Below are positions 3,745 through 27,349 of a DNA stretch of 37,480 nucleotides, piece by piece; the stretch's first letter is position 1, and every line of letters starts with the position of its first letter. The stretch comes from Gammaproteobacteria bacterium (GTDB lineage: Bacteria; Pseudomonadota; Gammaproteobacteria; GRL18). The DNA lies in assembly GCA_015231865.1 (NCBI GenBank), contig JADGAU010000013.1, forward strand, positions 1 to 37,480. Reading direction: 5' to 3'. Below the pieces are notes generated by a model, which was not told where the DNA came from, made no database searches, and worked only from the letters and a program-made list of their open reading frames with translations. The translations under genes and the position numbers were made by a program.

Positions 3745-4113
3745 TTGGGACGTTGGAGTCAGCTAAAAGAAAAAGGCAGAAATAGTTTTACTTACTATAC
3801 TGTATACTGCGAGTCTGGAAAAGTCCTTGCCCAATTACTTCTCGAACATAAATTTCATTCAGTAGGTCATCCCAAGTTGCATTCACTGGAAGCTGATCTA
3901 CTAACTTATGAGCTCCATCTTTTATTAAAACACTGGGTATATATTACTCCTGATAAAAACATGTTTCATAAGTATAAGCAATTGAGTATTTATAGGCTAC
4001 AAATTATATTACTATTAATATGTGTTTTATTGTCAAAACTTTCATTTTCACAAAGGTTTTTAATTATTCTACTTTTTGCCAGTAAAACTCCAAAAATGGA
4101 AATGGCAGGTTAA
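3745..4113 (+). CDS. Hypothetical protein or degenerate ORF
   Basis: 122 aa ORF with TTG start and no recognisable domain; its 3' end overlaps the convergent radical SAM gene by 50 bp. Confidence 0.25.
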   Translation: MGRWSQLKEKGRNSFTYYTVYCESGKVLAQLLLEHKFHSVGHPKLHSLEADLLTYELHLLLKHWVYITPDKNMFHKYKQLSIYRLQIILLLICVLLSKLSFSQRFLIILLFASKTPKMEMAG

Positions 4114-5911
4114 TGGCCTGGATATGATAAAAAGCATTTTTTTTCTGTTTCTGATAATGATATTCACGCAAGGTCTTTGTTGTAAAGTACAGATTGTTGC
4201 GAACCCCGTTGATAAATAGCGATTGATGCAGTTTTACAAAAGAACTTAAATCAAATTGCAAGTTCCCCTTTGTTGACGATGATAATGCTTTAAAACTCTG
4301 TTGATAGACACAATAATCAACAATGTGCTCCTGCTTTTCACGGCCTTCATCGCCATAGCGAACCAAAGTATTTCTAAGCATCATCAGTTGTATATAATTA
4401 TTAACCGGATCTTTACTATTAATCGCAAAGATTGTTGCTGGCACTGTTAAAATAATGGATGAGTTTTCTGTCAGCAGCGCCATTTCATTTTTATTGGATA
4501 ATATCGGACTGGATAAAGGATAGTTAAAAGTATCAATTGTTAAACTAAATAATTCTGCACAATAAAGTTGCTGTAAAATTTGATCCGATTTTATTAACTG
4601 ACTTAAGCTATTTTGTTGTTCATATAACTCAGGCGTTAAATAGTGATTTTTAACCGGTTCTAGTTCCGGTGTCGTAATACTTTTTAAATTATTTCGATAT
4701 TTATATTTTAAAGCATAGTCTTGAATAATAGTTTCAGTATATGGCGGATACTTATCCGGGTGATCGGCATAGATGGCCTTTTGCAAAAGACAGGTATAGC
4801 TTTTTGTCAGTTTGGTTTGCTCACGTACAAAAACACAGCCCTGGTGACAATATGGCAGATATAAACATTGAAAACATTCATCATTTGAATCCAGTTTATT
4901 TTCGATGGCTTCTATAGTCTGCCAACCTGAATTCATCAGTTCATTAATTGATTGTTTAAAAATATTACCATAGCGAAAAGACTTAGATGACTGCCCTCTT
5001 GGACAGGAATAAATATCACCATTACTTTGTAATAAAAAGAATTTATCACCACAATTGATGGCACTACAACAGAATTCAGGAGTAAATTCTTTAAACCAAT
5101 GTGTCATTAATCCCTGCTCTAGCTCTGTTCCCATAAACGCTTTTTTTAAAGCATGATAAAATTCTACTTGCTGATTCTGAGTCAACATTTCAGTACCAGG
5201 AATTTGTTTAATAAACTTGTTTTGATTTTCAATGCTATCAAATGAAAACATGACATTAAACTTAGCCATATTTAAACCAATATCATTATGAATAAATTTT
5301 ATGTCAGCGATTAATGCATCCATATGGTTAATATGTTCTTGAGTAATAACACAGGAAATTTTTTTATGGTGAGGGTAGCTTGCCAATAATTTAAGATTAT
5401 CCGTAATTTTATTTAATGTGGATTTATTATTTTTATCCAGACGATACTTTTCATGCAAGCTTAAAGGTAAATCAACACTGGCACTGATAGACACCTGATA
5501 TTGATCAAATAATTCATATAACTTATCAAAATTATAAAGATTGGTTTTAATATGAACGGGATTTAATGGAAAATTAGCAGCCTGAATTTTTTCTGCATGC
5601 GTTTGATAATAATCATGTGCAAAAGATAATAGTGACCTTAATAAGGATTTGGAGATAGCTGTTGGTTCCCCACCATGAAATGATAAATTAAATGGAATAA
5701 TATTTTCTTGAGTAAATTTATCTATTGCTGTTTTTAAGGTTTGCAGAGCTTTTGTTGTATCCGTGATTTCATCAGTTCCGGTTCCCAGATAGCAGTACTG
5801 ACAGGCCATATTGCAATAATTGCTTGGCGCATATAGCAGATGAATAAATTTATATTCCGGGCCATTATTTAACAAAGCTAATTCTTCCAATGCGGTATAA
5901 GCCAAAGCCAA
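4064..5911 (-). CDS. Radical SAM/SPASM domain protein (putative peptide/protein maturase) with about 230 aa C-terminal extension
   Basis: CX3CX2C motif (CNMACQYC), LSFHGGEPT, SPASM-like cysteines (CCSAINCGDKFFLLQSNGDIYSCPRGQ ... CFQCLYLPYCHQGC). Confidence 0.93.
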   Translation of the reverse strand: MALAYTALEELALLNNGPEYKFIHLLYAPSNYCNMACQYCYLGTGTDEITDTTKALQTLKTAIDKFTQENIIPFNLSFHGGEPTAISKSLLRSLLSFAHDYYQTHAEKIQAANFPLNPVHIKTNLYNFDKLYELFDQYQVSISASVDLPLSLHEKYRLDKNNKSTLNKITDNLKLLASYPHHKKISCVITQEHINHMDALIADIKFIHNDIGLNMAKFNVMFSFDSIENQNKFIKQIPGTEMLTQNQQVEFYHALKKAFMGTELEQGLMTHWFKEFTPEFCCSAINCGDKFFLLQSNGDIYSCPRGQSSKSFRYGNIFKQSINELMNSGWQTIEAIENKLDSNDECFQCLYLPYCHQGCVFVREQTKLTKSYTCLLQKAIYADHPDKYPPYTETIIQDYALKYKYRNNLKSITTPELEPVKNHYLTPELYEQQNSLSQLIKSDQILQQLYCAELFSLTIDTFNYPLSSPILSNKNEMALLTENSSIILTVPATIFAINSKDPVNNYIQLMMLRNTLVRYGDEGREKQEHIVDYCVYQQSFKALSSSTKGNLQFDLSSFVKLHQSLFINGVRNNLYFTTKTLREYHYQKQKKNAFYHIQAINLPFPFLEFYWQKVE

Positions 5912-6710
5912 TCATCAACATCAGGATATCTAAGATGAATAAATAATTAGCAGAATTGAATGAAAAATTAGCTCTATGTATTATAAATATTGCAAATGGT
6001 GCATAGATCATTAATACAAATAAAATAAGTAATCGAAATCGAAAACGCTTAAAGATACCATTTTTATCACCATGATAAATTAAAGTTGGTGTATCGACAT
6101 CATTGGCACAAGAAACAGTAGTGCAGCCATTATTATTTCCTGTCACCATAGCCCAGACCTGTAAATTCGCTTTTTCTGGTAACCAGTATTCTGATGTTTT
6201 ATAGCTGGTATATTTTGCCTGATCAAACTCTTTCGCAGCATCAATAGGAATTTGCTTCGATTCTGTTATTTTCGATTTTAAGTTGACCATAAATCTCATG
6301 GGTTTATCAATGGCAATATGGATTAACTTATTTTGTGCCTTGTTTTGGGAAGTGAGTAAAAGAGGCAACTGTTCTGATTCTTCTTTATAAATCACAGGCT
6401 GATGAGTTTTCATGCCCTTTCCAGGCTTTTTAGCTTTTGTCTGAAATACGGCCCGAATTGTTGCTCCCCAGTAACCACAACGTTTTTTTGTTACCGGTAA
6501 AATCATTTGTGGCATAGCAAGACGACCAGAAAAGAAAATATAATCACCATTGCTAATCTGATCTGTAATGGAGGCAGCAGTTTGTAATTTTAGATAAAAC
6601 TTTCTTAACGTCAGACTTCGTAAAAAGGCTTTAATAAAAAATATAAATAAAATAACAATCACAACATAATTTACAAAAACGACAAATTCTCTATCCATTA
6701 TTATTGCCAT
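5865..6710 (-). CDS. Membrane protein with GIDE-like domain
   Basis: N-terminal TM, central segment (GDYIFFSGRLAMPQMILPVTKKRCGYWGATIRAVFQ...) resembling GIDE-type membrane proteins, two C-terminal TM segments. Start overlaps the stop of the upstream ORF, possibly at the second ATG (ATGGATAG). Confidence 0.7.
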   Translation of the reverse strand: MAIIMDREFVVFVNYVVIVILFIFFIKAFLRSLTLRKFYLKLQTAASITDQISNGDYIFFSGRLAMPQMILPVTKKRCGYWGATIRAVFQTKAKKPGKGMKTHQPVIYKEESEQLPLLLTSQNKAQNKLIHIAIDKPMRFMVNLKSKITESKQIPIDAAKEFDQAKYTSYKTSEYWLPEKANLQVWAMVTGNNNGCTTVSCANDVDTPTLIYHGDKNGIFKRFRFRLLILFVLMIYAPFAIFIIHRANFSFNSANYLFILDILMLMIGFGLYRIGRISFVK

Positions 6711-7071
6711 TGTTGTTATTATTGTTATTGTTGTTGTTATTTGAATAACTTATTTCCAAACCATCTAAGACAGAAGCTCCTGCAACCATTGATGAAGCTT
6801 TGCCAAGATAATATTCTGGTTTAACACGAGAAACCTTTACACCATCAAAAGTATAAACATTATCATCTTCTGAAGTATAAGGGATTGAATTAATGATCTG
6901 ATCTTTTTGATAAAAATAAAGAATTGATCGTTTAAAAATCAGGTGTTTATCATCTGCTTGCTGTTGAAAGAAAGACTGTATTGCCTGTTTTAAATTGTCG
7001 TATTGCTTATCAAATGCTTCAATTCCTATGCCTTGTAAAAATAAATGTATTTGTTGTTCCAACTGATTCAT
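6691..7071 (-). CDS. Small protein with poly-Asn/Gly C-terminal tail; candidate modified substrate of the downstream radical SAM enzyme
   Basis: 126 aa ORF ending ...LDGLEISYSNNNNNNNNNNNGNNNG*; first gene of an overlapping three-gene run ending in a radical SAM/SPASM protein. Confidence 0.75.
   Translation of the reverse strand: MNQLEQQIHLFLQGIGIEAFDKQYDNLKQAIQSFFQQQADDKHLIFKRSILYFYQKDQIINSIPYTSEDDNVYTFDGVKVSRVKPEYYLGKASSMVAGASVLDGLEISYSNNNNNNNNNNNGNNNG
6694..6741 (-). repeat. AAY-type trinucleotide microsatellite encoding N(11)GNNNG
   Basis: Minus strand AAT AAC AAC AAC AAT AAC AAT AAT AAC AAC AAT GGC AAT AAT AAT GGA, followed by TAG. Confidence 0.9.
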
Positions 7072-8565: not shown

Positions 8566-9687
8566 ATGAATAAAATATTAATTGTCGATGATGAGCCATT
8601 AAATCTTGATATTTTGGTTAATACTTTAAAAGATCAATATGATATTGTTGCCTTAAAATCACCTAAAGAGGCTTTAAATTTAACTAAAAAAGAAGCTTTC
8701 GATTTAATTTTGCTCGATATTATGATGCCTGAATATAATGGCTATGATATTTGTAAACAGCTCAAACAAAGGGAAATAAATTCAGATATTCCTGTAATAT
8801 TTATTTCTGCCTTATCGACAGTTGATGATAGATTGATGGCATATGAAGCTGGCGGTGAGGATTATATAACCAAACCAATTGATCCTAATGAGCTAAAATC
8901 AAAAGTTGAAATTGCTCTTAAACATCAAACCAATATTAAACAATTACACGATACCATCGAAAATGTAACTTCTAGAGTAAAATCGATACGTTTAATTGCT
9001 GATGAAACACAATTAATGACTAATTTTTTTAAGAAATTATTACAAGTTGAAACTTTTGAAGAATTATCTCGATTAACCTTGTCTATCTTTGAGCAATTTA
9101 AACTTAACGTTACTTTTTCTATCTTTTTACCTGAGAGAAAACCCGTCTATCTTTCCACAAAAGGACGAGTAAGCCCAATTGAATTAGCTACAATTGAAAA
9201 AGCTAAAAATAAAAATGAAACCATTCACTATAAGTCGATATCTGTTTTTAATACCGATTTTATCACATTAGTCTGTAATTCTATGCCCATAAATGATAAA
9301 AAATATTATGAACAATTATTGGAAAAGATAACGACATTAATTGATGCTATTAATATTTCATTCAAATCACTGCTTCGTTCTAAACAAAGCAGACAAAGCT
9401 TAGTCGAAAAAAATAAACAATTAACTGATACCTTTAGTAAGACAGAAAGTATTATCAATATGATTGAAACCATGCTAAAGAAAAATGATGAAACAATCAG
9501 TAGAATTACCAATGAACTCATTGATTCTGTACACCAAGACTTTATGTTTCTTGGCTTAAGTGAACCGCAAGAAACAGAAATAATTAAACTGATTGAAGAT
9601 AATGAACGTAAAATTCAGGAAGTATTAAGTAAAAATTCTGAATTGGATTCAAAAATTGCAATGGCTAAAGCCTTATTGAGTTTGTAA
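8566..9687 (+). CDS. Response regulator: N-terminal CheY-like REC domain plus uncharacterised C-terminal region
   Basis: MNKILIVDDEPLNLDILV...DLILLDIMMPEYNGYDICKQL...PVIFISAL...GGEDYITKPIDPNELKSKVEIAL; no recognisable HTH, GGDEF or kinase output. Confidence 0.92.
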   Translation: MNKILIVDDEPLNLDILVNTLKDQYDIVALKSPKEALNLTKKEAFDLILLDIMMPEYNGYDICKQLKQREINSDIPVIFISALSTVDDRLMAYEAGGEDYITKPIDPNELKSKVEIALKHQTNIKQLHDTIENVTSRVKSIRLIADETQLMTNFFKKLLQVETFEELSRLTLSIFEQFKLNVTFSIFLPERKPVYLSTKGRVSPIELATIEKAKNKNETIHYKSISVFNTDFITLVCNSMPINDKKYYEQLLEKITTLIDAINISFKSLLRSKQSRQSLVEKNKQLTDTFSKTESIINMIETMLKKNDETISRITNELIDSVHQDFMFLGLSEPQETEIIKLIEDNERKIQEVLSKNSELDSKIAMAKALLSL

Positions 9688-10009
9688 CAATAAATAACTT
9701 TAAAACCAAATAACTCAGTTCCATTATACTAGCCCAAATTATTATCTAGACTATTTTTTCAAAAATCTTATATTATTTCCTAAAGCCGCTTTTTGCAGGT
9801 AATTTTGACTTTATATAGCATATATACCATTCTAATAAACATCCATTGGTTTTTATAATCTAACGTTTGATGGAATCCATTATGATTAGTCTGGTGCGCC
9901 GCTTGACGATATAAAAATTGATATCGTCATCCACATCTTTTTCAAGTGTTTTACTATTGAATCGTATTCATTTAAGTAAACTCATTCACACTTTAAAATG
10001 AGCGGTAAA

Positions 10010-11995
10010 TTAGAACACAATATTCATCATCGAGATCATAACTATTATAAATAAAACTGTCATAATTCCACCTGCCTTCATAAAGTCAGCAACACGGTAA
10101 CCGGCTGGCCCCATAATTAAAGCATTAACCTGATGAGTTGGAATAAGGAATGAGTTTGACGTTGCAATAGCAACAGTTAATGCAAATAATGCTGGATCTG
10201 CACCAACACCAAGAGCAATATTTACTGCCAAAGGAACCAGTAAAACAGTCGCTCCCACATTTGACATAACCAATGTAAAAAAAGTAGCTAAAAGCGCAAT
10301 TGATGTTTGAATAATCCAAACTGGAGCATGGCCAACAACCGTTAATACCTGTTCTGCAATCCATTTTGCGGTACCTGAAGATTCAACTGCCAATCCTAAA
10401 GGTATTAATGATGCAAGTAAAAAGACAGTTTTCCAGCTAACCGCATTGTAAGCTTCTTCAATGCTTAGAACGCGACTTAGTATCATGCCAACAGCACCAG
10501 TTAACAAGGCAATCGAAAGTCTAAGATCGGTAAATAAAACTAGAAATAAAGCAATTCCAAAGAATATACCAGCAGCTCGTAATTTATTCGGTCTTTCTTC
10601 TTCCTGTTGAGGATATTCAGAGGTAACTAAAACAAAATTGCGATCATTTTTTAGACGTTCATAATTCATCCAGGTGGTATGAACAATTAAAGTATCACCT
10701 GCATGAAATGGCTTATTTCGAATATCATCACCTTCGCGCATTGTTTCACCATTACGATGTAAACCAATCATTGCCAGGCCATAAACTTTACGCATCCAGA
10801 CATCACGAGCAGATTTCCCAATCAATGAAGAACCCGGTGGAATAACAAGTTCAGCAATACCCGCTTTAGTCGATGATAAATGCTCTGCAAAACTACTTAA
10901 AAACTCTCTTTTTCTTAAATGAAAAGTTTCAATAAAATGTTCTAAATCATGTGGATCAGCAATAACACCAAGAACCATTCCACTTTGAAGTCCCGTATCT
11001 CGAGCAATTTGTCCAGGGCCGATCATACTTTCTTCACCGCTTAATTTTGCAGCAATAATTCGTACTCGATGTTCTGTTTCAATATCATCAAGACTTTTAC
11101 CAATTAAACCACTATCTTCATTAACAACCAGTTCATATAACTCATAATCCACGCCATAGATATTATGAAGATAAGCCATCGTATTTGTGGCTTCAGTACT
11201 ACTTTCTGACTTAGTTTTAGGTAATACAAAACGTCCTGCAATAACAAAATAAAGAATACCGGTTGCAACCAGTGCCAAACCAACAGGCGTTACTGAAAAT
11301 AAGCCCCAGGTATCCATTTGCTTATCAGCTGGGAGCGCTGTATTTGAAGTTAAAATTAAATCATTCAATAAAATCAGAGGACTTGAGCCAACCATAGTCA
11401 CCGTACCACCTAAGATTGCGGTAAAGCCCATAGGCATTAATAAACGAGACATTGGCAAACCAGAACGGGCTGAAATACGACTGACAACTGGTAGAAATAA
11501 TGCTGCAGCACCAACATTTTGCATAAAAGAAGAAATAATACCTACTGTACTGGAGATAATAGGAATAATCCGTGTTTCAGTTTTTCCGCCAACTTTTAAA
11601 ATGAAGGCAGCGACTTTATTCATGATGCCTGTTTTGTCCAGACCGGCTCCGATGATCATCACTGCAACAATGGACATTACCGCATTAGATGAGAAACCAT
11701 TAAAGAGTTTAGCCGTATCCACTAAACCGGTAGTTAACCCCATAAAAGGAGCAAATAGACTAGTAAGTCCAAGTAAAACCATCACCGATACAGCAGCAAC
11801 ATCCACTTCAACAATTTCAAAAGCGAACAAATAGATTGTTAATAATAAAATTGACATTACCCAGGCAATTTCAATTGTTGGAACAATTTTTGACAGGTAT
11901 AACCCGGCAACGACGAAAACAACTAGAGCGATAATACTCTTTGAGAATAATATATTGATTTTGCTTTTATCTTTAATTTGCCCATCATCTGCCAT
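10010..11995 (-). CDS. SLC13 family permease with internal TrkA-C (RCK_C)-like domains
   Basis: 661 aa; two membrane blocks; central repeats (YELVVNEDSGLIGKSLDDIETEHRVRIIAAKLSGE ... AELVIPPGSSLIGKSARDVWMRKVYGLAMIGLHRNGE) typical of SLC13 permeases carrying RCK_C insertions. Confidence 0.92.
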   Translation of the reverse strand: MADDGQIKDKSKINILFSKSIIALVVFVVAGLYLSKIVPTIEIAWVMSILLLTIYLFAFEIVEVDVAAVSVMVLLGLTSLFAPFMGLTTGLVDTAKLFNGFSSNAVMSIVAVMIIGAGLDKTGIMNKVAAFILKVGGKTETRIIPIISSTVGIISSFMQNVGAAALFLPVVSRISARSGLPMSRLLMPMGFTAILGGTVTMVGSSPLILLNDLILTSNTALPADKQMDTWGLFSVTPVGLALVATGILYFVIAGRFVLPKTKSESSTEATNTMAYLHNIYGVDYELYELVVNEDSGLIGKSLDDIETEHRVRIIAAKLSGEESMIGPGQIARDTGLQSGMVLGVIADPHDLEHFIETFHLRKREFLSSFAEHLSSTKAGIAELVIPPGSSLIGKSARDVWMRKVYGLAMIGLHRNGETMREGDDIRNKPFHAGDTLIVHTTWMNYERLKNDRNFVLVTSEYPQQEEERPNKLRAAGIFFGIALFLVLFTDLRLSIALLTGAVGMILSRVLSIEEAYNAVSWKTVFLLASLIPLGLAVESSGTAKWIAEQVLTVVGHAPVWIIQTSIALLATFFTLVMSNVGATVLLVPLAVNIALGVGADPALFALTVAIATSNSFLIPTHQVNALIMGPAGYRVADFMKAGGIMTVLFIIVMISMMNIVF

Positions 11996-12227
11996 AGCAT
12001 TATATCCTTACTATTTATAGGTTACCTGAAAAAGCGCGCATTTTATCACAATTCAATATATTAATATATAGTGATTAATATATTTTCGTTTCTAAAATTA
12101 TCGATTTATTAGTATTATCCGATATAAGACTTATAAAAAATTAGTGTTAATTAAAACTTGAATAATTAGCTCTAATTTCCTATCCTTAAAGGGATACAAT
12201 TTTGATAAATTAAATTGAGACCTGCTT

Positions 12228-13385
12228 ATGAATCGATATATTTTGTTTGTAATTTATTTTGGCGTGTTTTGCCTTTTCTCTTATAGTTCTCTAAGTTTCT
12301 CTGATGAAAGCACAATAATTGAAGGCGCGATAAAAGATATTCAGCCCGAAATATACACGGTTAGGAAAAGCCAGGTTAATAGTTTTGTTCGTCTTGGAGG
12401 TAGTATTGTCCCTGAGCAAATTATCAATTTAAATGCTCAAATGCCGGGTGATGTTATGTATGTTGCCGGTGCTGAAGGCGATGAATTCAGAAAAGGTGAC
12501 AGATTAGTTAGTCTTGATACAAAAAAATTATTAGCCAAACGACAACAGGCAATATCTCAATTAGCTAGTGCTGATGCTGGATACCGAAATGCTTTAGTTC
12601 AATATAATCAGGAGATGGTTAATCCGAATTCACAAGGCAATACCATGTTAGGTGGTGCTCCGGCATTATTTAATATGTTTTCAAAACCGACACGCTCAAT
12701 GACCGGACAAGGCAATCCTAATATTGAAAGAAGTTCAAACCTATATGCTCATAGTGTACAGGTAGAAACGGCTAAAAATCAGGTAACTCAGGCTAAAGCA
12801 GCTTTGAAAGAACTGGATGAGTCATTAAAAAATGCAAATAGCTATGCGCCATTTGATGGTGTCATACTTAAGAAAATGATTGAAAAAGGTGATATTGTGC
12901 AGCCAGGTATGCCATTGGTTAGCTTTGCTGATATCAACCGATTACAAATTCGTGTCGAAGTACCAACCCGTTTACTTAAAGTTGTCAAAAGCGCCGGTAA
13001 TTTATTTGCCAAAATTGATGGAGAACATGAACTGGTGCCTATTTCAGTTGACCGGGTATTTCCTATGGCTGATGCTGGTGGCCATACGACAACTGTCAAA
13101 TTTTCTTTAAATAAAGAAGTAAAAGTTCAAACAGGCATGTATACTGAGGTTATTCTTCCCGATCCGGATAGTAAGGATATCGCTTTACCTCAAATTCCTC
13201 AAACAGCTATTATCTGGAGAGGTAGTCTACCCGCTGTATATAAAGTTGATGCTGAAGGTAATCATAGATTACGTTTAATTCGTGTTGATGAAATGGCATC
13301 CAATGGTATGGTTAGAGTCATTTCAGGTATCAATGTTGGTGATGAAATTCTTATCAGACCAAACATTGCATCACTACAAAACTGA
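12228..13385 (+). CDS. Efflux RND transporter periplasmic adaptor subunit (HlyD/MFP family)
   Basis: Signal peptide; MFP-type barrel and hairpin segments (VPEQIINLNAQMPGDVMYVAGAEGDEFRKGDRLVSLD ... SYAPFDGVILKKMIEKGDIVQPGMPLVSFAD); directly upstream of an RND permease. Confidence 0.93.
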   Translation: MNRYILFVIYFGVFCLFSYSSLSFSDESTIIEGAIKDIQPEIYTVRKSQVNSFVRLGGSIVPEQIINLNAQMPGDVMYVAGAEGDEFRKGDRLVSLDTKKLLAKRQQAISQLASADAGYRNALVQYNQEMVNPNSQGNTMLGGAPALFNMFSKPTRSMTGQGNPNIERSSNLYAHSVQVETAKNQVTQAKAALKELDESLKNANSYAPFDGVILKKMIEKGDIVQPGMPLVSFADINRLQIRVEVPTRLLKVVKSAGNLFAKIDGEHELVPISVDRVFPMADAGGHTTTVKFSLNKEVKVQTGMYTEVILPDPDSKDIALPQIPQTAIIWRGSLPAVYKVDAEGNHRLRLIRVDEMASNGMVRVISGINVGDEILIRPNIASLQN

Positions 13386-23344: not shown

Positions 23345-24871
23345 ATGAAAAAGAACTCATTATCATTTTTATTAAAGCTGCCATTAATGCTTATGGGAAT
23401 TCTACTTATGTTTGGTGTTAGTATGTCTACAGCATATGCATCCGGGGACGTCAACCTTCTCGATTTAACTTCCAGCACATATGGCATAATAGCATTGGTA
23501 ATTTTTGTTCTTGCTTATGCTTTGGTTATTGGAGAGGAAGCCTTACACCTTAGAAAGTCAAAGCCCGTTTTAGTGGCTGCAGGTATTATATGGATTCTGG
23601 TGTCACTTGCCTATTCAAGTGCAGGACCTGAATATAACCATGTTGCAGAAACTATGGTTCGCCATAATCTATTAGAGTTTTCTGAATTATTTCTATTTTT
23701 ACTGGCCGCTATGACCTACATTAATGCAATGGAAGATCGCGGTGTTTTTAATGCGCTACGTGGCTGGTTAGTGTCTAAAGGGTTCTCTTTTAAACAAATT
23801 TTCTGGATTACTGGCGTGCTAGCATTTTGTATTTCGCCAATCGCAGATAATTTAACGACTGCCTTATTAATGGCTGCTGTGGTAATGGCAGTTGGTTCAG
23901 GTAATATGACCTTCATTGCAATTTCGTGTATCAATATTGTAGTTGCTGCAAATGCCGGTGGAGCCTTTAGTCCATTTGGTGATATTACCACCTTGATGGT
24001 GTGGCAAAAAGGCATTGTCCACTTTACTGAATTTTTTAACATTTTTATTCCATCAGTGGTTAACTGGCTTGTTCCTGCTGTAATTATGTCTATGGCAATC
24101 CCTAATGAAAAGCCTGAAGCAGTTAATGATAATACTAAAATTAAACGAGGTGGGTTAATAGTTGTTGGTTTATTTTTATTTACCATAGCCATGGCTGTTA
24201 GTTTCCATAATTTCCTTCATTTACCACCTGTACTGGGTATGATGACAGGTTTAGGTATCTTAAAATTATTTGCTTACTATTTGAAAAAGACTCATCCGGA
24301 TATGCCTGATGACGTAGAAGTAGTTACAATGGATGGAATTGCAAATGATGATTCAAATGAAGATTCCCACAAAAGTAGCGATAAACATTATGATATTTTT
24401 AATATTCTTGCACGTGCAGAATGGGATACTCTAATGTTTTTTTACGGCGTAATATTATGCGTTGGAGGCCTAGGTACATTAGGTTATTTATCATTAGTTT
24501 CACATGCCATGTATGAAGGTGTTGGGATTATGGGCACTGGCACAACAGGTGCTAATGTATTGGTAGGTATATTATCTGCTATTGTTGATAATATTCCAGT
24601 TATGTTTGCGGTATTATCAATGAATCCTGACATGGCTTTAGGCCAGTGGTTATTGGTAACGTTAACTGCCGGTGTTGGTGGTTCATTATTATCAATTGGC
24701 TCTGCTGCAGGTGTTGCCTTAATGGGACAAGCGAGAGGAGTTTATACCTTCTTTATCCACCTAAAATGGACATGGGCAATTGCATTAGGTTATATCGCCA
24801 GTATTTGGGTACATTTGTGGATAAATGCAGAACTGATGAATACGCCAATACAGACTATGTCAAAAATGTAG
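23345..24871 (+). CDS. nhaD: NhaD-type sodium:proton antiporter (copy 1)
   Basis: NhaD signatures: GEEALHLRKSKPVLVAAGIIWILV, ISPIADNLTTALLMAAVVMAVG, NAGGAFSPFGDITTLMVWQKG, DNIPVMFAVLSMNPDMALGQWLLVTLTAGVGGSLLSIGSAAGVALMG. Confidence 0.96.
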   Translation: MKKNSLSFLLKLPLMLMGILLMFGVSMSTAYASGDVNLLDLTSSTYGIIALVIFVLAYALVIGEEALHLRKSKPVLVAAGIIWILVSLAYSSAGPEYNHVAETMVRHNLLEFSELFLFLLAAMTYINAMEDRGVFNALRGWLVSKGFSFKQIFWITGVLAFCISPIADNLTTALLMAAVVMAVGSGNMTFIAISCINIVVAANAGGAFSPFGDITTLMVWQKGIVHFTEFFNIFIPSVVNWLVPAVIMSMAIPNEKPEAVNDNTKIKRGGLIVVGLFLFTIAMAVSFHNFLHLPPVLGMMTGLGILKLFAYYLKKTHPDMPDDVEVVTMDGIANDDSNEDSHKSSDKHYDIFNILARAEWDTLMFFYGVILCVGGLGTLGYLSLVSHAMYEGVGIMGTGTTGANVLVGILSAIVDNIPVMFAVLSMNPDMALGQWLLVTLTAGVGGSLLSIGSAAGVALMGQARGVYTFFIHLKWTWAIALGYIASIWVHLWINAELMNTPIQTMSKM

Positions 24872-24974: not shown

Positions 24975-25126
24975 AGGCGCTCATAAGAGGCCTTAAGTAG
25001 TTTAATGGATTCTCTATTAAATTTAACTTTATTTATGTTATTAACATAAATTAGAAATAATTAAACGTCTGATCTTAATTGATAGACAAAAACTATATAT
25101 TGCTTATTAAAGGAGAATATATCATG
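24975..25126 (+). promoter_or_regulatory. ROSE-like RNA thermometer candidate in hsp20 5' UTR
   Basis: 5' hairpin AGGC(G)CTC-ATAA-GAGGCCT (24975-24993); SD-sequestering hairpin AUAUA-UUGCU (25095-25104), loop UAUUAA, AGGAG-AA-UAUAU (25111-25122) with the UUGCU anti-SD and G.G mismatch characteristic of ROSE elements. Confidence 0.6.
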
Positions 25127-25636
25127 AGAAATATCGATTTATCACCATACTACCGTTCAATGATTGGCTTTGACCATATGGCTTCACTTTTAGATGCTGC
25201 AAATAGACGTAGTCAACAACAATCCAGTTACCCTCCGTATAATATTGAACAACTTAATGAGGATAACTATCAAATTGCCATGGCTGTTGCAGGATTTGAA
25301 GAGAATGAATTAATCATTACTTCTGAAAACAATCAATTAACTATTGAAGGTAAAAGAACAGAAGACCAAACTGAGCACCGTTATGTTCACCAGGGTATTG
25401 CAGCAAGAAACTTTCAACATACTTTCCAATTAGCTGAGCATGTTAAAATTTCCCAGGCAAACTTAAGAAATGGTTTGTTATATATTGACTTAGTCAGAGA
25501 AATCCCTGAAGCGATGAAGCCAAGAAATATACCTATTGGCAATGTTCATAATGTCAGAGGTAATATTGAAAACGCTAATACTCAAAACAAGGCGGAAAAA
25601 GCTTCAATTGATAACAAGAAAAATGAAGCTGCGTAA
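25124..25636 (+). CDS. ibpA: Hsp20/alpha-crystallin family small heat shock protein (IbpA-like)
   Basis: MRNIDLSPYYRSMIGFDHMASLLDAA...YPPYNIEQLNEDNYQIAMAVAGFEENELIITSENNQLTIEGKR; start at 25124 has AGGAG 8 nt upstream, preferred over the track start at 25079. Confidence 0.95.
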   Translation: MRNIDLSPYYRSMIGFDHMASLLDAANRRSQQQSSYPPYNIEQLNEDNYQIAMAVAGFEENELIITSENNQLTIEGKRTEDQTEHRYVHQGIAARNFQHTFQLAEHVKISQANLRNGLLYIDLVREIPEAMKPRNIPIGNVHNVRGNIENANTQNKAEKASIDNKKNEAA

Positions 25637-25813: not shown

Positions 25814-27349
25814 TTGAAACCAATAAAGGGGATGATAAGTAAAATGAAAGTATTATCACTATTATTACTATTGCTTATGCCTGGAATGTCCCTGGCATCC
25901 GGAGGCGGAATACAATTACAGGACTTTACATCTCACTGGGCTGGTATTGTCAGTGTTGCTATCTTTATCATGGCTTACTCTCTAGTAATAGCTGAAGAAG
26001 CTTTACATCTGCGAAAATCAAAACCGGTAATGGTTGCAGCAGGTATTATCTGGACACTGGTTGCAATTGTCTATGTTAACTCTGGAGACATACACACAGC
26101 TGAAGCTGCTGTTCGTCATAACCTTCTTGAATTTGCTGAACTTTTTCTATTTTTATTAGCAGCCATGACCTATATCAATGCCATGGAAGAACGTGGTGTG
26201 TTTGATTTATTACGGATCTGGCTGGTATCCCGTGGTTTCTCCCTAAAAACAATCTTTTGGTTAACTGGCGCCCTGGCTTTTGTTATTTCGCCGGTCGCAG
26301 ACAATTTAACAACAGCCCTGCTAATGGCCACTGTAGCCATGGCTGTTGGCGGAACTAATACAAAATTTATTGCCATTGCCTGTATAAATATTGTAATAGC
26401 GGCAAATGCCGGTGGTGCATTTTCACCATTTGGAGATATAACAACCCTTATGGTCTGGCAAAAAGGCATTGTTCAATTCCAGGAGTTTTTTGCCTTATTC
26501 GCACCGTCTCTGGTTAACTGGTTAGTGCCGGCAATTATTATGTCCATGGCAATTAGCAACGAAAAACCGGAAGCAATTGAAGCAGGTAATTTTCAATTAC
26601 GTCATGGAGCCTGGTTTATTGTCGGCTTGTTTATCCTGACGATTACAATGGCTGTATCCGCTCATAACTTCCTTCATATGCCGCCTGTATTAGGAATGAT
26701 GACTGGTCTTGGATTCTTAAAATTCTTTGGTTATTACCTCAAACGTCGTGATAATAATCTGGTACCAACTAAAAATGATGCCAGTCTAGGCGAGCATCAA
26801 ATGTCACTTGAAGATACTGCAACTAAGGGTCGAGGTCATGCAGTAGATAACGAGCATAGTGATAGTCAATACAATATATTTAAATCACTTGAACGTGCTG
26901 AATGGGACACATTGATGTTTTTCTATGGCATTATCTTATGTGTTGGCGGTTTAGGTACATTAGGTTATCTATCTCTGATTTCTCAGCTAATGTATGTCGA
27001 TCTTGGTACAACGAATGCCAATATTCTGGTTGGATTTTTATCTGCGGTTATTGATAACATTCCTGTTATGTTTGCAGTATTAGCAATGATGCCAGATATG
27101 TCACAAGGTCAGTGGCTATTGGTTACTCTGACTGCTGGTGTGGGTGGTTCTATGCTATCAATAGGCTCGGCTGCAGGTGTTGCTGTTATGGGACAAGCTA
27201 GAGGAGTCTATACCTTTATGGCGCACCTGAAATGGACCTGGGCTATTGCATTGGGTTATGCCGCAAGTATCTGGGTACACTTCCTTATTAATGGTGATAA
27301 ATTTACCGGGACCGCAGGTGCTGCAGCAAAATCAATGACTGGTCACTAA
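25814..27349 (+). CDS. nhaD: NhaD-type sodium:proton antiporter (copy 2)
   Basis: Same NhaD signatures as copy 1 throughout; likely true start is ATG at 25844 (signal-like MKVLSLLLLLLMPGMSLASGGG), downstream of AAAGGGG. Confidence 0.95.
   Translation: MKPIKGMISKMKVLSLLLLLLMPGMSLASGGGIQLQDFTSHWAGIVSVAIFIMAYSLVIAEEALHLRKSKPVMVAAGIIWTLVAIVYVNSGDIHTAEAAVRHNLLEFAELFLFLLAAMTYINAMEERGVFDLLRIWLVSRGFSLKTIFWLTGALAFVISPVADNLTTALLMATVAMAVGGTNTKFIAIACINIVIAANAGGAFSPFGDITTLMVWQKGIVQFQEFFALFAPSLVNWLVPAIIMSMAISNEKPEAIEAGNFQLRHGAWFIVGLFILTITMAVSAHNFLHMPPVLGMMTGLGFLKFFGYYLKRRDNNLVPTKNDASLGEHQMSLEDTATKGRGHAVDNEHSDSQYNIFKSLERAEWDTLMFFYGIILCVGGLGTLGYLSLISQLMYVDLGTTNANILVGFLSAVIDNIPVMFAVLAMMPDMSQGQWLLVTLTAGVGGSMLSIGSAAGVAVMGQARGVYTFMAHLKWTWAIALGYAASIWVHFLINGDKFTGTAGAAAKSMTGH

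Follow-up and report, generated by a model that had tools for sequence, protein, structure and literature searches.

A three-gene cassette on the minus strand of a 37,480-nucleotide stretch of gammaproteobacterial DNA (contig JADGAU010000013.1 of assembly GCA_015231865.1, the whole of which is called the window here) probably encodes a protein- or peptide-modification system, in which a radical S-adenosylmethionine (SAM) enzyme with a SPASM region iteratively modifies the C-terminal asparagine (Asn) runs of its partner. Relatives of the enzyme are encoded next to an Asn-tailed small protein in bacteria, and in the tail modules of Campylobacter phages. The small protein of bacteria shares nothing with the phage tail fiber except the Asn run, and this run tracks the enzyme. 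Judged from sequence comparison, it is therefore the most likely target of the enzyme. We lean, by a little, toward the wider proposal of an undescribed radical SAM family, with a new C-terminal domain, whose members modify homopolymeric C-terminal Asn repeatedly by a chemistry that is likewise undescribed, both in the bacterial small protein and at the tip of the Campylobacter phage fiber. If true, a phage receptor-binding protein would count among the substrates of radical SAM enzymes.

An Asn-tailed partner at bacterial loci

Relatives of the window enzyme were collected from one genome-wide scan (26 loci) and from genome samples, and removal of repeats left 32 distinct bacterial loci, the window included. 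At all 32 the enzyme gene adjoins a gene for a ~120-190-aa protein that has an Asn run at its C-terminus, a co-occurrence that the first-pass annotation of the window had anticipated, along with variable tail length. The pair is found in Pseudomonadota, Myxococcota, Geobacteraceae, and Bacillota, and in three gene orders: small protein-membrane protein-enzyme in the window and in locus L002, enzyme-small protein-membrane protein in G254, and membrane protein-enzyme-small protein in G242 and in most of the Pseudomonadota, Myxococcota, and Geobacteraceae.

The small protein of the window, the likely substrate or precursor (126 aa; 6691..7071, minus strand), consists of an N-terminal domain of ~108 aa and a poly-Asn tail, and ends in ISYSNNNNNNNNNNNGNNNG. 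The tail itself, N11-G-N3-G, is encoded at 6694..6741 (minus strand) in mixed AAC and AAT codons, with a Ser codon just before it (6742-6744). Across the bacterial loci the run is 9-27 Asn long, and its length varies even among close relatives (10 in L011, 17 in L012, 18 in L014, and 27 in L024). The residue directly before the tract is Ser at 30 of the 32 loci, Thr at L010, and Cys at L004, and a Tyr or Phe two residues before the tract (giving YSN or FSN) is present at only six, namely the window, L002, L005, L006, L013, and L027. The tail usually closes with a Gly followed by the stop codon; the window and L002 share N-G-NNN-G, G254 ends in NGNNGNNG, G787 closes with Arg-stop and L025 with Asn, and at L008 the reading frame continues beyond the tract. 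The tracts of L004 and L015 are partly masked in their assemblies. No Cys is found inside the tracts, and one lies beside the tract only in L004 and in phage locus L109. Outside the tail the small protein is poorly conserved between loci, and it has no match among Pfam, NCBIfam, or PHROGs models. Nothing relevant on poly-Asn in connection with radical SAM enzymes or ribosomally synthesized and post-translationally modified peptides (RiPPs) was found in the open-licence literature.

The pairing of the enzyme with poly-Asn is far beyond chance. In 13 genomes that carry the family, the pattern of eight Asn, Gly, and stop occurs exactly once per genome, at the enzyme locus, and not at all in a reversed control. 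Among 250 Burkholderiales genomes the same pattern occurs three times, always beside the enzyme, and one of these loci was found from the tail alone, with the enzyme recognized next door afterwards. The system is rare: it is present in 3 of 369 genomes of the class, and the class to which the Acetatifactor genome belongs has it in 2 of 245. Furthermore, in six high-GC loci the AAC/AAT count is 71/29 in the tracts versus 127/16 in the neighboring enzyme gene (p = 0.0007), and this alternation above the level of the enzyme gene shows that selection maintains the amino acid run, rather than a DNA repeat. Two trivial explanations were rejected: the alternating codons and the uniqueness of the tract in each genome rule out a DNA repeat artifact, and poly-Asn is not a general trait of the class, as the N9 runs that exist elsewhere are for the most part internal, and the proteins with them are unrelated.

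Relatives in Campylobacter phages

A search of plasmids returned a full-length relative of the enzyme (35.9% identity over 98%) in a Mu-like prophage of Campylobacter coli, where its gene lies between the tail fiber and tail sheath genes, and the same gene occurs in phage CAM-P21 and in further IMG/VR contigs. The PHROGs family phrog_1802, a phage radical SAM domain protein of unannotated function, is homologous to the window enzyme over its full length, C-terminal domain included (E 1.6e-51), and differs from the bacterial enzymes in lying within tail modules, with the Asn run on the tail fiber. The fiber gene (Phage_tail_fib) is two genes upstream of the phage enzyme, and its product ends in STNNNNY, ATNNNNY, SSNNNNY, TGNNF, SGNNF, MGNNF, MGNNS, or SCNNNNN. 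In sister prophages without the enzyme and its 211-aa neighbor, fibers with N-termini that are mostly 79-98% identical end instead in ELR, NVR, GHV, and the like. All 13 contigs with the enzyme have a fiber with a C-terminal Asn run, compared to 0 of 14 sister contigs without it (Fisher p = 5e-8; the test takes no account of the relatedness of the contigs, so that the value overstates certainty). The tracking of enzyme by fiber ends amounts to a natural experiment that points to substrate and site beforehand, and raises the testable question of how phages diversify their receptor-binding tips.

Prophages L086 (4307-7743, NZ_CP082878.1), L087-L096, L109, and L110 swap cassettes at the fiber end, one version consisting of the fiber C-terminus, the 211-aa protein (phrog_10241), and the radical SAM gene, and the other of a different fiber end and a protein of ~170 aa. 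The near-identical fibers of L086-L091 and L097 differ at a short stretch in the C-terminal ~60 aa (FPEIAPNHFISQL, FPEIASDHRMRQL, FPEIAPHYMTRQL, and others), a pattern that suggests local hypervariation just ahead of the Asn-run end. No relation was found on comparison of the bacterial small protein with the phage 211-aa protein. AFYI01000004.1, a record in the phage collection, was discarded as a phage locus, being a Salmonella genome contig with the radical SAM gene among chromosomal genes.

A radical SAM/SPASM family with its own C-terminal domain

The enzyme of the window (~600-615 aa; 4064..5911, minus strand) matches the Pfam models Radical_SAM (just under the cut-off), Fer4_12, and SPASM, and scores 42.8 bits against TIGR04085, above the cut-off of 27. 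The more specific NCBIfam models fit far less well: the best, the sulfatase maturase model TIGR03942, gives 96 bits versus a cut-off of 349.45, followed by DynA (91.9 bits versus 450, with the C-terminal domain outside the match), PapB (85.5 versus 340), and the 3-residue cyclophane models GrrM/XyeB/AmcB/YhhB (at best 77.6 versus 425). Neither the window enzyme nor four diverse relatives reached any NCBIfam maturase cut-off; the comparison with maturase models that the first-pass annotation had proposed thus places the enzyme in no known maturase family. No curated NCBIfam model for the family and no paper describing the system were found.

In an alignment of 28 full-length relatives, with pairwise identities of 37-95%, the radical SAM motif CNMACQYC (CX3CX2C; 5792..5815, minus strand) and the eight cysteines of the SPASM region, for two auxiliary clusters (4790..5071, minus strand), are conserved, and remain so after the phage relatives are added, bearing out the earlier recognition of both sets of cysteines from the window alone. 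The predicted structure (mean predicted local distance difference test, pLDDT, of 87) has anSMEcpe as its best fold match (E 3.8e-16). One position departs from that enzyme: the ...VYPCD of anSME aligns with VYSC(V/P)RGQ, so that CPRGQ stands in the window where the sulfatase maturase has PCD, and directly after the third SPASM cysteine bacteria have Val or Pro and phages have His. The Asp of PCD is the proposed catalytic base.

The extra C-terminus of about 230 aa, also noted in the first-pass annotation, is real. The last ~190-230 aa of the enzyme form a separate conserved domain with a confidently predicted fold (mean pLDDT 92.3), encoded in the window at 4067..4642 (minus strand; YGDExRxKQxH ... 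TTxxLREYHYQKQKxNAFYHIQAINLPF), and motifs of the type YG(D/E)ExRxK and REYHY-K-NAFYH-Q-NLPF are near-invariant. Compared to the PDB, the model of this domain gave no match at E<=0.001, with best query TM-scores of ~0.36; one weak viral match was also seen. New annotation models would follow from a domain with no clear solved relative and a small protein with no curated family. The PADLOC matches (to a viperin-like core, and to PDC-M09B at 17-18 bits on the C-terminus) were set aside as generic or chance.

Proposed activity and alternatives

With CX3CX2C and SPASM cysteines and an adjacent gene with a low-complexity C-terminal core, the cassette fits the broad SPASM maturase kind. Asn C-beta crosslinks made by SPASM enzymes are established (PMC11002830), and TvgB is a SPASM enzyme that acts repeatedly on a repeat core (PMC9062424). 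The enzyme, with two auxiliary 4Fe-4S clusters, would grip the C-terminus of its partner through its private C-terminal domain and modify the Asn residues of the tail repeatedly. A hydrogen atom would most likely be taken from Asn, at C-beta by analogy with the known SPASM maturases of Asn, to give a two-electron-oxidized product with a loss of 2 Da per event, the candidate products being Asn-Asn or Ser-Asn crosslinks or dehydro-Asn. The membrane partner may hold the substrate or the complex at the membrane, and in phages the modification would change the tip with which the fiber binds its receptor. Because the tail has no Cys and no general aromatic residue, Asn oxidation or Asn-Asn/Ser-Asn links are the outcome to be expected. 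The first-pass annotation was judged right about the pairing and about the Asn tail as the core; support for the run as the substrate is strong, and the chemistry is a prediction from sequence.

Three points weigh against this proposal. The same lack of Cys and, mostly, of an aromatic partner in the tail excludes the classic crosslinks and leaves the product without a name. The dedicated protease and exporter that would mark a RiPP natural product are not seen, as varied membrane proteins adjoin the pair and none is conserved throughout; with no conserved transporter or protease, the system may modify a resident protein rather than make a secreted peptide. Finally, L125, a distant enzyme relative on a 96-kb metagenomic phage contig, has no Asn-run C-terminus nearby and is the sole exception seen. 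A tail-associated protein near L125 (IMGVR_UViG_3300010935_000101, reverse strand 8917-12825) has a Cys-rich end (CALCASCSGCPCSYSFPACK), perhaps a different substrate.

After Asn oxidation or crosslinking, our second choice is epimerization along the tail, from L-Asn to D-Asn and with no change in mass, which would give a helix or ladder like that of polytheonamide-type peptides. A variable-length Asn homopolymer suits a repeated reaction of this sort, and no crosslink partner would be necessary. However, the invariant cysteines are all cluster ligands, leaving none to spare as hydrogen donor, which makes epimerization unlikely. Peptide epimerases of the polytheonamide type are not known to be SPASM enzymes.

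Unlikely, too, is the reading in which the run serves as a flexible docking handle or spacer, with modification at some other site of the partner. In its favor, Asn tracts of this kind are natural flexible linkers (most PDB matches to the tail are the linker of maltose-binding-protein fusions), and tail length ranges from 9 to 27, with differences even between close relatives. Against it, there is little conservation in the folded part of the partner, and in phages the Asn run sits on an unrelated tail fiber; the run itself is the sole common feature.

Conversion of the residue before the tract to formylglycine by an anSME-like oxidase, with the Asn run as a recognition tag only, is decidedly improbable. 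The near-universal Ser ahead of the tract, with Cys at one locus, would suit such an enzyme, as would the rank of anSMEcpe as best solved relative and fold match and of TIGR03942 as top NCBIfam match, and anSME shares the SPASM cysteine pattern. Sulfatase-maturase activity is nevertheless disfavored because the position of the catalytic Asp is Val, Pro, or His, and the TIGR03942 score is little more than a quarter of its cut-off. Furthermore, Thr precedes the tract in L010 and Gly precedes the short runs of several phage fibers, and, unlike anSME, the enzyme has an extra C-terminal domain and no sulfatase in its cassette.

A triceptide-type cyclophane joining the aromatic residue of Tyr/Phe-Ser-Asn to Asn C-beta, the chemistry suggested by the first-pass annotation, is very improbable: the XyeB, GrrM, and AmcB models score weakly and the window has the motif, but 26 of 32 bacterial tails have no aromatic residue at that place and the cyclophane scores are far under their cut-offs.

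The cassette differs from each of the known systems that it resembles. TvgA/TvgB of Halomonas, which yields a poly-cyclopropylglycine peptide (PMC9062424), also combines a SPASM enzyme with a repetitive C-terminal core and several modifications, but there Val is modified within TVGG repeats, compared to a bare Asn run here (the enzymes were compared by description only). The triceptide maturases (GrrM/OscB, XyeB, AmcB) are SPASM enzymes that act on the C-terminal core of a neighbor, often at Asn C-beta, and differ in needing an aromatic residue two positions before the Asn. Dynobactin, the product of the DynA pathway, has an Asn C-beta crosslink, but the cores of the dynobactin and darobactin maturases DynA and DarE contain aromatic residues or His (PMC11002830). 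Sactipeptides and ranthipeptides have Cys in the core. Among radical SAM maturases with low-complexity substrates, whose cores have so far shown mostly Cys, aromatic, or Val chemistry, the core, the C-terminal domain, and the phage branch are new. Because a bare run of 9-27 Asn offers no obvious partner for known crosslinks, its product would represent either a new modification or a known one put to new use.

Membrane partners and layout of the cassette

The membrane protein is present in the window cassette, as first annotated, but an essential role for this particular one is not supported, since unrelated membrane proteins replace it elsewhere. Its relatives among the loci are seen only in L002 (42%) and G254 (23%), with TKxKKPGKGM in common, and the enzymes of these three loci form one clade. 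Most other loci carry instead a membrane protein of 150-170 aa with FPTNARKxxKI. Kinship between the two kinds was considered and dropped, profile comparison having given a non-significant resemblance of 13 columns only. Two Clostridia loci (L025 and L052) have a leucine-rich-repeat-like protein with two transmembrane segments before the enzyme/Asn-tail pair; after the pair comes a protein with CXXC pairs, either zinc-ribbon-like or a second membrane protein (both families assigned by eye). This exchange of unrelated membrane proteins indicates that the enzyme and the Asn-run protein are the core pair. The label GIDE-like, given initially to the membrane protein of the window, was abandoned, as a search of the whole genome with the GIDE/MUL1 model PF12483 returned no match anywhere, the middle gene included, even at E 10.

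The three genes had been drawn as open reading frames overlapping end to start (7071>6691, 6710>5865, and 5911>4064). All three were confirmed at these coordinates, although the overlaps may differ in extent. For the middle gene, ATG 6698 is the most likely start, and a better one than 6710; the protein encoded from there has 277 aa (5865..6698, minus strand), with ~3 hydrophobic segments and the conserved TKxKKPGKGM motif. From this ATG, the overlap with the end of the small gene, at its stop, is 8 nt (ATGGATAG), and a comparable overlap is present in L002. No ATG start is evident for the radical SAM gene, which has in-frame TTG codons at 5911, 5905, 5890, and 5875, the last of which is probably used. 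Since its similarity to relatives begins only at ~5860, a start at 5911 may overstate how far it overlaps the middle gene.

Elsewhere in the window, two closely similar NhaD-type antiporter-like genes (23345-24871 and 25814-27349) lie around a small heat-shock-like gene (25079-25636), in an apparent duplication.

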